From Dioscorea cayenensis subsp. rotundata (taxonomy: Eukaryota > Streptophyta > Magnoliopsida > Dioscoreales > Dioscoreaceae), in NCBI RefSeq assembly GCF_009730915.1, contig NC_052488.1, positions 21,570,305 through 21,634,304 on the forward strand: a DNA stretch of 64,000 nucleotides, given 5' to 3'. Position numbers and translations under genes: made by a program. How positions within the stretch are numbered: position 1 is the stretch's first letter; each line of letters opens with the position of its first letter. Under the pieces are notes generated by a model. That model saw only the letters and a program-made list of their open reading frames with translations, was not told the origin of the DNA and ran no database searches. Shown piece by piece: positions 1-9,768 of this stretch.

Positions 1-309
1 ACTTTTAAATCAAAAACAAAACACTCGCTCACACGCTCTCTCCCCCACTCTAACCATCTTGAGAGCTGGAGGCCCACCAACGAGCTTTGATTTGAACCGT
101 CGGAAGTTCCACCGACGAGCTTCAGCTTCAGCTCTGCGGATGCGTCTCCTTTGGTTGTCTCTCCTTCACTTTGGCGCTCTCGGTAATCCGCAATTTTCTG
201 GTAATTTTTGGCGCAAATTTGCCTCGTTAGATCCCTGTTTCTCGTAGTTGTTTCCGGATGTTGAATCGAGTTCCTTTTTTTCCTCTAGAGATGTTAGAGC
301 TGAGTAGCA

Positions 310-825
310 ATGGTTGAAAGCTTGGGGAATGGTTCTTTGGTGGATCTGGGCGAGGAGGTGGAGCCGTTGCCGCGGGAGTTCGATCCGGTGGAGATCTCGT
401 GCGGGATAAAGTCGGAGGCGAATGGGGCCATAGGAGAGAGAGATCGTTCTTTGGAGGAATGTACATACGATGTGTCTCACGATTGATAATGGGAAGGACG
501 AGGTTACTGGCGAGAAGGTCGCTTATATGGCCGGTGTTCTAGTGAGGTATCGGAAGTTTCTTATTGAGAGAACCAAACACCATCTTGATATGTGAAATCT
601 TTTTGTTTAGAAGCTATAAGAATCAGCTTTACATTGATGATTTGTGTGCTTGTGTATCTAGAGAGAATTTTTATTCCATTAATTGAATGGGAAATCCTTT
701 TTGTGATTATACTTTTTTGGTAACAGGTTATCCCTATAATTTGGACTTTGATTATGGTGTTCTGGGTCAGCTGCAATATTTCTTGATTAACAACCTGGGT
801 GATCCCTTCATTGATAGCAATTGAT
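310..825 (+). pseudogene. SDC: Serine decarboxylase (SDC, group II PLP decarboxylase) 5' fragment
   Basis: The first ATG at 310 opens a frame like the N-terminus of plant serine decarboxylase, the pyridoxal-phosphate enzyme that makes ethanolamine from serine. Exon 1 runs to about 585 and contains [20 protein letters not shown] and ERTKHHL. Exon 2 starts at 727 with [19 protein letters not shown] and [11 protein letters not shown], then a stop at 823-825. Breaks: a frameshift near 430-440 separates the ATG frame from the homologous frame, which has its stop at 484-486. The exon 1 donor reads CTTG-ATATGT where GTATGT is expected. Everything after the first ~130 residues is missing, including the PLP-lysine region. 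Bases 1-309 look like the parent gene's leader. This is a dead captured fragment. Confidence 0.8.
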
Positions 826-1904
826 TCATTCTTTCATTCAATTTCTTCGTCATTCTTTTGTGCAAGATCTGACTAATTTTTCTGGTTTTCTGTTGTGATT
901 AATCTTTTCATGAATTTGTTTTCCTTCTCTTTTGACATTGCTTTGAGTTTTTTTTTTGACTAATTTCTTGTTAAGTTTCAATTTATATCCCAATTCTACT
1001 GAAATTTTTTTCATGAATTGGTTTCCTTCTCATAAGATTTCTTTGTATGTAAATGTGATATCTTTTAGGATATTTAACTGGAATTTTTGTGGCTATTGGT
1101 TGTAACAACATCACAGTTCTTATTTTTCTCTGTTGTGATTGTTTAGATTGAATGTTTCATAGCATAACCCAATGCTATTTGGATTACTTGGTGTTGATGC
1201 AGTGAATCTATTTTTTATTTATTTTATCTTTCTTCTCACAAAGAAAGAAAATGATTGGTTTTCCTTGCATGTTGTATTACTGCAAAAATTTGGATGTCCG
1301 AGGTAGTGTCATATCAATACCAATGCCTAGTTTTAATAGTAATAGTAGTAGTAAGTAGTAAACTAGTTTGCCGTTGTTTGCTGTCTGTTGTGTTTAATGA
1401 TGTTTGGTAGGAATGATGAAGAGTTAACTTCATTTATTTAGAAGGATGATCCTACTTGCATTCAATTAATAGCATTTTGAATTCTTAACTATTCAGAAAC
1501 TTCATGATTCCTCTACCCTATTTGCATTCAATTATAAGACCCCACGAAACCAAATATTAACTAACTAGTGTCCAATGATCAAAATCCAAAAGAGGAGAGA
1601 GGAAACTCCTTAATTAACACTTTGAATTTTATTAAATTGATCATCTAAGTTGGTGGACAGAATTGCTCTTAACCAATCAATTATGGAACCCACAATCAAT
1701 TCAGATCTGGGTACATTTTCTGCTATTAATTCAAACCTTGTTTTCATGGTTCTCTTTCCTCTTCAGAAATCAATCAACAATTTTTTCCTGTAATTTCTTA
1801 ATTATATTTTCATGTAATTACTGACCTTATTATGCTTGTTAATTGATTGATTATGGTTAAAACACCCAATTAAACTTGTCCACTCTTTTAATGATCTTCT
1901 CTTT
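826..1904. other. No gene seen; T-rich intron-like spacer
   Basis: This stretch between the serine decarboxylase and SPL fragments is T-rich and looks like intron or intergenic DNA carried with the captured fragments. I see no coding similarity and no clear repeat. Confidence 0.5.
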
Positions 1905-2120
1905 TCTTGCTGTCCCGAGTGCCACCACCTCCTCTTCTAAGCGTTCTCAAACGCCTAATAATGCCGGCCATATTGCTTGTTGCTTGGTTGATGGTTGTAA
2001 GTCTGATCTTAGCTAGTGTAGAGATTATCACAGAAGGCATAAGGTTTGTGAAGTTCATTCTAAAACTCAGATTGTTATGGTTGGTAGCCAAGAACAGAGA
2101 TTTTGCCAGCAATGCAGCAG
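1905..2120 (+). pseudogene. SPL: SPL transcription factor (SBP box) exon 1 fragment with in-frame stop
   Basis: The frame at about 1907-2120 reads SKRSQTPNNAGHIACCLVDG, then CKSDLS, a TAG stop, [18 protein letters not shown] and [10 protein letters not shown]. This is the first zinc-binding half of the SBP domain of SQUAMOSA-promoter-binding-like factors, closest by eye to the SPL13/SPL16/SPL18 type. The TAG at 2005-2007 replaces a residue that is usually Lys or Asn. The fragment stops at CQQCSR followed by GTATCA, the conserved intron position inside SBP boxes, and the second half of the domain is absent. There is no start codon and no downstream exon, so it is non-functional. Confidence 0.85.
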
Positions 2121-2465
2121 GTATCATGTTTCTATGCTTTTGGATATTCATTCATATGATGGTTTTGATTATAGAGTTTTATATGAATTGCAACTTGGAA
2201 GCAGTGTTTCTGATCAAAATGTTTTTGATCTTCATCTGCTCTCTCTGAGAATCTTATTGCTCTTTAGCAATTATATATTCATGATTGGTAACTTGTCGTG
2301 CTTTAATTCAATTGCAAAAAAATGTTCATGTTTAGGAGTAAATCATCAAGGAACAGATAGGAAATGAATTGGATGTTGGAAACAGTGTTTCTGCTACTCT
2401 CATCAAAAGTGTTTTTTTCTTGCAAATTACCAAGACTGAGGACAAAAACATTGTAATTTAACTGA

Positions 2466-2623
2466 GATATCATCAACTGAGATATCAAGGTTCTTCACAT
2501 ACACTGTAATGACACTGTTCTAATAGTGTACCTGACAGAATCTTGATATCATCTACTGAGATATCAAGGTTCTTCACAAAAACATTGTAATAACACTGTT
2601 CTAATAGTGTATCTAACAGAACA
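2466..2623 (+). repeat. Two 79-bp tandem repeat units
   Basis: Units at 2466-2544 and 2545-2623 are near-identical (both start GATATCATC and continue ACTGAGATATCAAGGTTCTT). Part of the second unit plus the following intron, about 110 bp (2570-2681), occurs again at 3766-3876 after the last poly(A)-binding-protein exon. Confidence 0.85.
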
Positions 2624-2686
2624 CTCTGATTGTTCTCTTGGTTTAATTCTTATCTAGCATTGCTATTTTCTTTTGTGCTTCGACAG

Positions 2687-3759
2687 TAGTTTCATGCAAG
2701 GTTTCTGTGGATGAGAAGGGGATAAGCAAAGGGTTCAGATTCGTTCAGATGGAGTCTGAGGAAGCTGCTTTGTTAGCGATCAGAGGTTTGAACGGAAAGG
2801 ACCTCAAGGATGAGATCAAGAAACTGTGAGTTTTTCCTTAACTTCTTCCAATCTTTATCTTTTTGGTTCTTTAGATCTTTGTTTGAGTTATGATTGAACC
2901 AAATCTCCTTAGAAACCACTATTCTTCTCTGAATTTCATTTTAGATGATCATAGGTCATGTTATGCATAATTTCTTTCTTGCTTTGTTGGTTAGTGTTTA
3001 TTGTGTATTAAGGTTTTTTGGTATGCATGTTGTCTTTGTGTTTTTGATAGAAATATCTAGTGTATGTTTACTGATCTATATTGGGTTATAGTGTTTTCTT
3101 TTTACCATGCAGTTGCAAGTTCTCTGAATTTGGCAAGGTCAACAGTGCTATTGTCATGAAAGACAGTACTGGAAAGTCTAAAGGGTTTGGGTTTGTTAGC
3201 TTTGAGTTGCCAGAACATGCGAAGATTGCAATGGAAGCAATGAACGGCTCAAAACTTGGTATGTTTCATTATCTTTTTGTTGGTGTCTGGCTTATGATTG
3301 TTTAAATTAATCTTGTGCTTTTTTCTCCCTGTTTGTTCAGGTTCAGGGTCAAAGATTTTATATGTCAGACCAGCTCAGAATAAAGCAGAACGTGAGAAGA
3401 TATTGAAGTTACAGTTTGGAAAGAAGCTAGATCAACCACTGAAGAAGAACCAGGCAAGTATACTACTGTTTACTATGGTTCGAATTATTCTCTACCCAAG
3501 GAACTAGGCAAGTGTACTGCTGTTTATTATGTTTTGAATTATTCTCTACCAAAGGACCAGTTAAGTACTGCTGTTCACTATCTTGAATTATACTGTTTCC
3601 AAAGAACCAGTTAAATTATGCTGTTAATTAGTATATTCCAGTTAAGTACACTGCTGCTTAGTAATAACACAATGTATTCTTGTGCAGGGTGAGACGGTGT
3701 ATGTGAAGAACCTTGACATCTCAGTTGATGATATCAATGTTCTTTACTATAATAACAAG
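2687..3759 (+). pseudogene. PABP: Poly(A)-binding protein fragment, four exons (RRM2 part to RRM4 start)
   Basis: Four exon-like blocks match plant cytoplasmic poly(A)-binding protein, which binds mRNA tails through four RRMs. Exon 2687-2827 reads CKVSVDEKGISKGFRFVQME (end of RRM2). Exon 3113-3258 reads [20 protein letters not shown] then [11 protein letters not shown] (RRM3 with an intact RNP1). Exon 3341-3453 reads GSKILYVRPAQNKAERE. Exon 3688-3759 reads GETVYVKNLDISVDD (start of RRM4). Introns keep GT/AG ends except one GC donor at 3454. RRM1, the RRM2-RRM3 linker, most of RRM4 and the C-terminal MLLE domain are missing. The blocks themselves have no stops, but no start or end exists, so this is a truncated fragment and not a working gene. 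Confidence 0.8.
3454..3660 (+). repeat. Degenerate ~55-bp tandem repeats in a PABP-fragment intron
   Basis: Three to four diverged copies of a unit containing GAATTATTCTCTACC and ACTGCTGTTTA-like words follow one another inside the intron between the third and fourth poly(A)-binding-protein exons. Confidence 0.6.
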
Positions 3760-3876
3760 GTTGAGTTCTTCACAAAAACATTGTAATAACACTGTTTTAA
3801 TAGTGTACCTGACAGAACATTCTGATTGTTAACTTGGTTTGATTCTTATCTAGCATTGCTATTTTCTTTTGCGCTT

Positions 3877-5560
3877 GTTCCTTTGATTATCCTGATTCAA
3901 CGCATCATCTCACTGGATTGTCAGACTTTTGGTTCATTTGCATTGGTTGCAGTAGATGCTGTGTTGATAATTTTTTTGTTTTTTTTTTTACTTGAAATTT
4001 TAACTGGTTTGATGAAACTAATAATCTCACCAAAATGTTGGAAGTATGAAATTAATAGTTCATTATTTGGCTTTACTTACAATTTTAGTTCTTTTTTATT
4101 TTGTTTATTTACTTAGGAGAACTCATGGCTCAAGGATTAAAAGGTTTAAAGGTTAGGGAGTTGGAAGATAGTGCTATATATATATATATATATATATTTT
4201 GGTGTACTTAAATATTATACATACAAATAATTGTAACAGAGGTAGATAAAGATGGTACTAAGTTATACTTAGGATGGTGGTAAGTTTTTGAGTAAAATAT
4301 AGTCTTTGAAATGATCAATGAAAATATTTGTTTATTGAAAACCTTCCGTAGTTAAGTTTAATCCAACGGTTGTTATAAACCGGCTCTAGAGCCGGTTTTA
4401 TATGTGGTGGTTTTAAAACATATGAAAAAACTTCATTTAATCCTATAGAGACAGGTATAACTGTTTTTATAGGTTTTGAAAATCGCTTCAAAAACTCTTT
4501 TTTTTTATGTAGTGGATGATATATTTTAATAGATTTTGACTTGTGTTTACCGGACGTGGAATGTTTGACTTCTTCCCAATGTATATATGGTTGAGGTATA
4601 ATAAAGCTTTTATGTGGTTATTTATACACATGATAAAAAATATATTAATAAAATAAAATATGTTTTCCTTGATAATATCATTAATTTATTTTATGAGTTT
4701 TTTAAAAAAATAAATTTCTCCCAATAGGATTTTTTTTTTATATACACAGAATCAAATTTCAAACCACTTATTTAAATAATTCAAATTTCTATAATTTAAA
4801 TATACTATTTTTTGTATTAGGCATGTATATGACAATGATCGACTTAGGGGCCAACTTATAAATTATGCATATATATATATATATAATCATATGTGATTAT
4901 CTCTAAAGAAACGGGAAAAAAATGATACTTGGTATCCTTTTTACTATTGATATAATAATACATTTTTTTTGAAAATGCAAAGACTTTTACGTGGTGAAAT
5001 TTTTTTCAGGACTTAGCTAGTACTAGTAGTCCTGATAAAGTTACAATTATAACATGCGGTTACCTTGTATGTAAATATTAATAATATTTATATAGGTAGT
5101 AATTTATAATGCATGCGCAAAGCGCAAATTGTAAAAACAATTGTTTTATTAGCACCAACAATGTAAAGGAATTGAATGATACCAAGTAATATTGTCTGAA
5201 TTAATAAATGTGAATTATTTACTTTGTAAAAAGAAAATTGCCTGTATTAAACGTGGGATTCAAGTTTTATCCTCTCCAAGATTAACCAACAATATGTAAG
5301 TTATATTTCATAGGTATATATCTATATTTAGAAACTTAATTAGAAATTATTCGATATTCATTATTTAATTTTGTATAACATTTAATAAACATTCATGAGA
5401 ACTTGTGTATATATGTGCACTCCTATAAGAAGAATTATATATATATATGCGTGTGTATACTTATAGATTTATACCTTAATTACTGTGATTACGCAATAAC
5501 AAAGTTGTTTATTCTAAGCCACAATTTAGGAAGATGATGAAAATGCTCATCTATTATTTT

Positions 5561-5996: not shown

Positions 5997-6683
5997 TTAG
6001 TTTGTTCCTCCAAACCTGGCCTTGAGCTTCTTCACAACATTATTATCTAAAAAGGTTACGTTGCCCACAACGTCTGAAGGCAAGTCATTCCCAAATAGTG
6101 AAAACGCTAGTGTTTGGATACCTGGACTTGAGCCACCAAAGAAGGCCAGGACCTTTGCTTGTCCTTTCCCAACGTTCAACTGGAAGTGCAACAAACCTTG
6201 AGGGAAGATAAAGACATCACCTGCCTGTATAGTTTTAGTATAAGCTTTGTTGTCAGTTGAGATGAAGCCAACGTAAACGGTCCCTTCAATGCAAACAATA
6301 ACCTCATTGGCCCTAGGGTGAGTGTGCGCTGGGACAATACCACCAGGTCCCATCTGAATGGACAACAGCGAGATACCCAGGCCATTAAGGCCAGGGAACT
6401 GTTGGCTGAATAAATATGTCAGAGATAGGTTGATAGGAGGGAAATTTTGATTGGACTTGAAGATATCCTTGTAAAAGAAGTCATTGGAAGTGACAACGGA
6501 TGCTTTCTTGCATGAGTATCCGGCAGGACCCTCCGGCGCCGTGAGGTCTCCGACGCAAAAGTCTTGGACGGCTGCGTTGGAGGAAGAGGAGGAGTTCAGC
6601 AAGAAGATGATGAAAAAGAAAAGGATGATCATGTTGGGTTTGATCAGTGACATGTTATTGTTATCTTTGTATATATATCTCAT
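5997..6683 (-). CDS. GLP: Germin-like protein 1 (ABP19-type cupin), secreted
   Basis: A 228-residue single-exon germin-like protein: a one-cupin apoplastic glycoprotein of the family that forms Mn-binding oligomers. It opens with a hydrophobic signal peptide (about 18-37, cleavage near SNA-AVQDFC). Cys43 and Cys58 fit the germin disulfide. Cupin motif 1, PAHTHPRANE, gives His120, His122 and Glu127. Motif 2, [16 protein letters not shown], gives His166, so all four metal ligands are present. N-glycosylation sites are NLS (85) and NVT (208). It ends FGGTN as its neighbours do. The TATA box at 6729-6736 lies 46 bp from this ATG, the same spacing as in GLP2. An internal Met at 6653 is an alternative start. 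Substrate and enzyme activity (oxalate oxidase, SOD or none) cannot be told. Confidence 0.93.
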   Translation of the reverse strand: MRYIYKDNNNMSLIKPNMIILFFFIIFLLNSSSSSNAAVQDFCVGDLTAPEGPAGYSCKKASVVTSNDFFYKDIFKSNQNFPPINLSLTYLFSQQFPGLNGLGISLLSIQMGPGGIVPAHTHPRANEVIVCIEGTVYVGFISTDNKAYTKTIQAGDVFIFPQGLLHFQLNVGKGQAKVLAFFGGSSPGIQTLAFSLFGNDLPSDVVGNVTFLDNNVVKKLKARFGGTN

Positions 6684-9096: not shown

Positions 9097-9768
9097 TTAA
9101 TTGGTACCACCAAACATGGCCTTGAATTTCTTCACCATATCTTTGTCAAAGATTAAGCTCACCTTCTCGACAACATCAGAAGGCAGGTCATTACCAGTCA
9201 AAGACATTATGGTTCCCTGGATGCCAGGGCTTGAGCCTTCGAAGGCAGCGAGGATCTTCGCCGTAATATTCCCAACATTCACTTCAAAGTGCAACAGACC
9301 TTGAGGGAAGATAAAGACGTCGCCTTTCTGTAAAGTTTTATAGTAAGCTTTGTTATTTGATGAGATGAAACCAGCTATGATGGACCCTTCAATCATGACA
9401 ATGACCTCATTGGCTCTGGGGTGAGTGTGACTGGGAACAAATGAACCAACCTCTATAGCAAAGTACACCAACGAGAGGCCTAGACCATTGACACCAGGGA
9501 AGTAGGGAGTGAACCCAAGAGTTGCTGAAGCATTAAACTTGGGAAGATAAGTTATGTGGGGTGTAAGGAAATCAGGGAAATAAAAGTCATTTGCAGTGAC
9601 TTTGGAGATGTTCTTGCAGGGATAGCCAGCAGGGTTCTCAGGTCCTGTAAGGTCTCCGACGCAAAAGTCTTGGACTGCTGCGTTGGAGGAGGAGGAGGAG
9701 GAGTTAAGCAAGAAGATGATGAAGAAGGTGAGGATATTGGATAAAATTGACATGTTATCAGCTTTCAT
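9097..9768 (-). CDS. GLP: Germin-like protein 2 (ABP19-type cupin), secreted
   Basis: A 223-residue single-exon germin-like protein, the closest relative of GLP1: both have HTHPRANE in motif 1, where GLP3-5 have GGTE. The signal peptide covers about residues 1-30 ([15 protein letters not shown]). Cys36 and Cys51 fit the family disulfide. Metal ligands are His114, His116 and Glu121 in PSHTHPRANE and His160 in [15 protein letters not shown] tripeptide (148-150) opens motif 2. N-glycosylation sites are NIS, NAS and NIT. The start is 45 bp from a TATA box. GLP1 and GLP2 are probably a recent tandem pair, since their upstream regions also share sequence. The biochemical activity is unknown. Confidence 0.93.
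   Translation of the reverse strand: MKADNMSILSNILTFFIIFLLNSSSSSSNAAVQDFCVGDLTGPENPAGYPCKNISKVTANDFYFPDFLTPHITYLPKFNASATLGFTPYFPGVNGLGLSLVYFAIEVGSFVPSHTHPRANEVIVMIEGSIIAGFISSNNKAYYKTLQKGDVFIFPQGLLHFEVNVGNITAKILAAFEGSSPGIQGTIMSLTGNDLPSDVVEKVSLIFDKDMVKKFKAMFGGTN

Follow-up and report, generated by a model that had tools for sequence, protein, structure and literature searches.

In the present study, we analysed a window of 64,000 nucleotides from Dioscorea cayenensis subsp. rotundata, corresponding to C18:21570305-21634304 of a 584-Mb assembly. Its first 4514 bases hold broken pieces of a serine decarboxylase (SDC) gene, an SPL gene and a polyadenylate-binding protein (PABP) gene, followed by a sequence resembling the end of a CACTA transposon. 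Negative numbers denote positions to the left of the window, counted so that 0 falls on the base directly before window base 1. As argued below from sequence comparison, window 1-4514 very probably makes up 97%, on the 3' side, of a non-autonomous Pack-CACTA element of 4634 bp that extends from window -119 to 4514 (C18:21570185-21574818) and has siblings with the same ends elsewhere in the genome. The following features were recognised.

1 to 84, plus strand: 5' subterminal region, aligned with five complete siblings; its CACTAC terminus lies outside the window, at -119 (C18:21570185).
85 to 822, plus strand: SDC piece with 5' untranslated region, exon 1 (310-587), intron 1 and the start of exon 2 (727-822); frame broken.
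823 to 1907, plus strand: AT-rich stretch, of which 823-1323 is common to the sibling on C20, with the same SDC breakpoint.
1908 to 2454, plus strand: SPL piece, in which a partial SBP-domain exon reaches 2120, with a TAG in frame at 2014, and intron sequence follows (2121-2454).
2455 to 2683, plus strand: patchwork junction between the SPL and PABP pieces.
2684 to 3733, plus strand: PABP piece with introns and four exons, partial or complete (ending at 2825; ending at 3258; 3341-3453; 3688-3733).
3765 to 3876, plus strand: second copy of a repeat, 93% alike to the first copy (2569-2680).
4332 to 4514, plus strand: 3' subterminal region and terminus, ending ...TTTTTTTTATGTAGTG, about 70-72% shared with siblings.

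The first-pass annotation of this DNA had reported the three broken gene pieces, all on the plus strand, and structure, Pfam and genome matches confirmed them. Window 434-592 matches serine decarboxylase structures (PDB 8jg7, E 1.9e-8). When stops are replaced by X, the SPL piece yields a Pfam SBP domain (E 1.7e-16); it also matches SPL proteins in PDB. In the PABP piece Pfam finds RRM_1 twice, the best structure match being the polyadenylate-binding protein 6r5k (E 9.6e-30). Chance resemblance is excluded by these E-values and by the siblings that carry the same ends. The parent-locus search proposed in the annotation succeeded for two pieces: an SPL donor was found at C5:26905293-26905854, matching 1908-2454 including intron sequence, and a PABP donor at C4:5367242-5368530 (in the sense of the piece, 5368530-5367242), whose exons and introns follow one another as in the window piece, which begins and ends within exons. 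For the third piece it gave SDC genes on C9 and C5 that match window 300-610 at 83%, of which the C9 gene is perhaps not the true donor. These two loci were rejected as further elements because their frames remain open through the later exons, as far as the sequence was read, and they are read as genes. They lie on different chromosomes and are 99.3% identical over 2.87 kb, so that they may have duplicated recently or reflect an effect of the assembly. As far as compared, the stretch 823-1907 does not derive from the SDC, SPL or PABP gene.

Introns had been described as kept in the SDC and PABP pieces. This was right for both, and only the restriction to those two failed, as the SPL piece keeps its intron too. 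Retention of introns in all three pieces rules out retroposition, as the annotation had stated, and it speaks equally against the proposal of pseudogenes from a local gene cluster, formed by retroposition or tandem duplication. We found nothing in favour of that proposal, the genes matched are situated on other chromosomes (C4, C5 and C9), and we give it practically no credence.

At the 3' side, the CACTA-like terminus placed at 4514 by the annotation proved correct. The last 200 bp of the element can be aligned with five complete siblings in a multiple alignment, and a search of the genome with the last 138 bp, a query that begins with a 22-bp palindrome, found matches at 11 places: this locus (C18 and the unplaced contig C167), five complete siblings and four incomplete or unresolved members. 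With one more found beside another sibling, six complete siblings have CACTAC/GTAGTG ends and exact 3-bp duplications, as listed here with the host gene pieces recognised in them.

C17:21039975-21045489, flanks ACT/ACT.
C10:2089872-2095148, flanks TAT/TAT: PAM2 and TBP.
C8:6851592-6856266, flanks GAG/GAG: ankyrin and clathrin heavy chain.
C1:12086533-12092046, flanks AGA/AGA: DSS1/SEM1.
C15:17559524-17565498, flanks TGA/TGA: fumarase.
C1:12094781-12097222 (hereafter C1b), flanks TGG/TGG, found beside another sibling: OVATE.

The clathrin piece is under Pfam's own cut-off, yet it matches clathrin structures at 6.2e-7. For the C17, C10 and C8 siblings, flank agreement was part of the selection and end homology between them was not; the ends of C1 and C15 were listed regardless of flank agreement. 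Five of the siblings are 4675-5975 bp long and C1b is 2442 bp. In the five compared siblings, likeness is confined to some 200-300 bp on the 5' side and 300-600 bp on the 3' side, with the exception of C10 and C17, which are 90-94% alike over their whole length. Toward their 3' ends the siblings contain numerous short self-matches, both direct and inverted, which may be subterminal repeats. Other candidates were less complete. A pairing at C17:12866954-12870510 (3557 bp, TGT flanks) was rejected as a complete sibling, since its other end is unlike the family 5' end and a chance pairing is likely; no 5' end was found in the 14.8 kb beyond the 3' end at C5:4058147; the member at C3:10339932 showed only a 3' end within the DNA examined; and C1:28669173-28678371 has eroded family ends with a copia-type retrotransposon inside.

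The annotation had begun the element at position 1; it starts at -119 instead, and the upstream CACTA terminus whose absence, or replacement by other ends, was to count against a CACTA origin is present. In the multiple alignment, about 130 bp from -119 line up with the 5' ends of five of the complete siblings. Among the 15 CACTA[CT] sites in 31 kb, -119 scores best and is tied only by -211, whose test stretch includes the same bases. Its best local score, obtained with C8, is 49. For the background 3000 random stretches were drawn; those scoring 49 overlapped the -119 site, hence the 2979 non-overlapping ones were used, of which none reached 49 (maximum 34). The CACTACA at -211 was rejected as the 5' terminus because sibling homology begins at -119 and the motif is not conserved in C167. 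We assign the 5' end to -119 because of the C8 match, the CACTAC motif and the multiple alignment, the other four siblings being weak in pairwise comparison. Both CACTAC at -119 and GTAGTG at 4514 are kept in C167. Just beyond the shared 5' end, about 150-220 bp from the terminus, C10, C17, C8, C1 and C15 have a CT-rich tract, and window 22-60, just ahead of the first gene piece, is CT-rich and less regular than in the siblings; such a tract could be a promoter-like or an uptake-prone site.

A search with the SDC piece led to an element on C20 with the 5' end CACTACACC at C20:10476166 and a 3' end decayed to GTAGAT, which makes its target duplication unreadable. Its cargo is an SDC piece and a protein kinase piece. 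The C18 and C20 elements share window 85-1323, and in both SDC exon 2 breaks off at the same point near 822 and gives way to unrelated DNA, whereas the C9 gene continues there. Past this shared module C20 runs on into the kinase piece. The common breakpoint with a different continuation suggests that cargo was loaded stepwise. In addition, substitutions relative to the C9 gene number 34 in 291 sites of the SDC exon 1 region; relative to the donors they number 39 in 540 for the SPL piece and 79 in 1192 for the PABP piece as it stands in C167. Provided that the C9 gene is near the true donor, we tentatively propose that SDC was captured first and SPL and PABP later.

The junction between the SPL and PABP pieces is a patchwork. 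It holds two short segments of the last PABP exon in inverted orientation (2468-2507 and 2547-2578) and a 13-nt scrap of the SPL intron at 2576-2588, which occurs again at 3772-3784. Furthermore, a 112-bp repeat with copies 93% alike at 2569-2680 and 3765-3876 flanks the PABP piece on the left and right. This arrangement would fit repair synthesis that jumps between templates. The cargo may thus have been acquired as DNA in more than one step, the SDC piece first and the SPL and PABP pieces later, joined via template-switching repair, and the element would have moved by cut-and-paste with transposase from another CACTA element. A TNPA/TNPD-type transposase is expected of autonomous CACTA members only. 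Pfam found no transposase domain at E 0.01 in the six frames of window 1-4514, nor in the scanned parts of C8, C10, C1, C15, C1b and C20; as none was recognised, we regard the window element and the scanned siblings as non-autonomous.

Several observations weigh against a single, intact Pack-CACTA element with this history. The pairwise local scores of the 5' end with C10, C17, C1 and C15 are 24-32, inside the background (maximum 34), and our confidence in one element is held down because the strong 5' match is with C8 only. From 12 bp inside the 5' end, 22 bp are missing that all five compared siblings possess, so that the terminus is not intact. There is no 3-bp target duplication: the annotation had expected GAT, which follows 4514, to be repeated, and the 5' side reads TGT, in both haplotypes. 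With regard to the loading, the module shared by C18 and C20 is unevenly diverged, with 611 of 702 positions identical in the SDC part and 456 of 492 downstream, and this counts against a single shared origin because one origin does not predict such unevenness. A further reason to treat the order of capture as tentative is that SDC may have been taken from a gene other than that on C9.

The target duplication of a CACTA element can be lost through mutation in old copies. Old age and the damaged 5' end can explain its absence here and are not proof of that cause. The flanks and the damaged end are also what one would expect if the two CACTA ends came from two unrelated insertions, with local pseudogene fragments between them that never moved as a unit. 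The C20 element argues against this account: there the same SDC piece, with its breakpoint, lies between 5' and 3' ends of the family, the latter decayed, so the SDC piece travelled with CACTA ends, and the fragments are not the independent insertions that would have counted against the annotation. Moreover, the length of 4634 bp is near that of five of the six complete siblings. Two separate insertions are in our judgement a quite improbable explanation.

Capture by a Helitron or a Mutator-like element (Pack-MULE), with the CACTA-like end incidental, was weighed as well. Pack-MULEs and Helitrons differ from CACTA elements in their ends and target duplications. A Helitron has a 5' TC and a 3' CTRR with a hairpin and inserts between A and T, and the target duplication of a Mutator-like element is 9-11 bp. 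The ends found here are CACTA/TAGTG (no separate scan for Helitron ends was made); they stand on both sides and are homologous to those of a CACTA family, six siblings have 3-bp duplications, and the nine bases before -119 (CTCTAATGT) differ from the nine after 4514 (GATGATATA), so that no 9-bp duplication of the Mutator type exists. Both kinds of element are known carriers of host gene pieces according to PMC1947982, and this is what can be said for such a capture, which we hold to be hardly believable. We file the window element in the CACTA (En/Spm) superfamily because its ends are homologous to those of the siblings; the missing target duplication lowers the confidence of this assignment. 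The Pack-CACTA interpretation of the annotation is supported, as host coding DNA, with matching genes elsewhere, lies between ends common to the siblings.

The contig C167 matches the flanks on C18 on both sides and in the same order. For this reason we rejected it as an independent transposed copy, and it reads as a second haplotype. The donor GT of SDC exon 1 is changed to AT at 588-589 in the window and kept in C167, and 165 bp that are present in C167 and in the donor are missing from the PABP piece of the window at 3115. An apparent 22-bp tandem duplication near the 5' end in C18 is absent from C167. Between C167 and the donor, the PABP exons have 13 nonsynonymous and 3 synonymous changes (pN 0.042, pS 0.038), which, judged on few changes, gives no sign of coding constraint. 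We infer that the element is now an old, decaying insertion without protein function.

The substitutions between C18 and C167 are unevenly spread. Within the element they number 26 of 681 sites at -119 to 599, 19 of 3483 at 600-4099 and 22 of 412 at 4100-4514, and in the flanks 34 of 976 on the left and 57 of 3183 on the right. The haplotypes thus differ by 0.55% in the middle of the element, by 3.8% and 5.3% at its ends and by 3.5% and 1.8% in the flanks. Recombination between haplotypes and an assembly effect are both possible causes of the low divergence in the middle. Elsewhere in the window, 6166-6594 and 9269-9700 are 74-77% alike and 3.1 kb apart and look like a tandem pair of related genes.

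The orientation of the cargo was examined by six-frame Pfam scans of both strands, with X at stops, in window 1-4514 and five complete siblings; C10, C1 and C15 were trimmed at the ends, C17 was left out, and C20 was scanned in part, its antisense strand over one portion only. Ten host families were recognised in 7 elements (SBP, RRM, Ank, Clathrin, PAM2, TBP, DSS1, Lyase_1, Ovate and Pkinase), and all ten pieces lie on the sense strand of their element, with none antisense. A two-sided sign test gives 0.002 on pieces and 0.016 per element (7/7), where pieces of the same element are perhaps not independent and C18 and C20 seemingly share an origin. Among the less complete candidates, C5:4058147 gave no host piece, C17:12866954 gave only a hAT domain past its putative end, and C1:28669173-28678371, of which half was scanned, gave only copia and was excluded from the count. 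The bias toward sense orientation is suggestive, a lead and not a result. That the lineage loads gene pieces with a fixed sense polarity, stepwise behind an older 5' piece, we consider unlikely. If it were true, transcription of the donor or of the element would be linked to capture, or selection would act against antisense captures, for instance as triggers of silencing. In a limited library searched with few terms, we found no statement on orientation bias of cargo; a passage on the same orientation, in PMC8903248, concerns neighbouring elements and not cargo.

Among known systems, Tgm-Express1 from the soybean wp allele is the closest likeness (PMC1947982). This CACTA element of 5.7 kb holds exon and intron segments from five host genes unrelated to one another, and its captured exons are spliced into chimeric transcripts. 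Like it, the window element is a CACTA with exons and introns of several unrelated host genes. Tgm-Express1 differs in being inserted within an intron of an expressed gene and in having yielded cloned chimeric RNAs, whereas the cargo of the window element is broken. Pack-TYPE elements, according to PMC8903248, are non-autonomous and carry coding DNA often from several loci; maize Pack-CACTAs carry the most distinct loci, and an Arabidopsis Pack-CACTA is named as a further case. The window element resembles them in its coding DNA between transposon ends, its non-autonomy and an interior less repeated than the ends. The uptake proposed in the same text is re-mobilisation of two neighbouring insertions, whereas the SPL/PABP junction in the window, with its interleaved inverted scraps, looks more like template-switch repair.

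Overall, the element is a further example of the known Pack-CACTA kind, comparable to Tgm-Express1. Through putative chimeric RNA or small RNA, an effect on the donor genes is possible. Loci like this one could otherwise be annotated as genes or pseudogenes of SDC, SPL or PABP. Three features lend themselves to separate tests across all members of the family: the SDC breakpoint common to two elements, the patchwork at the SPL/PABP junction and the single orientation in which the cargo lies. Since several elements of one genome have the same ends but carry different cargo, with donors that can be identified, their sequences may reveal how, and in which order, CACTA elements capture genes.

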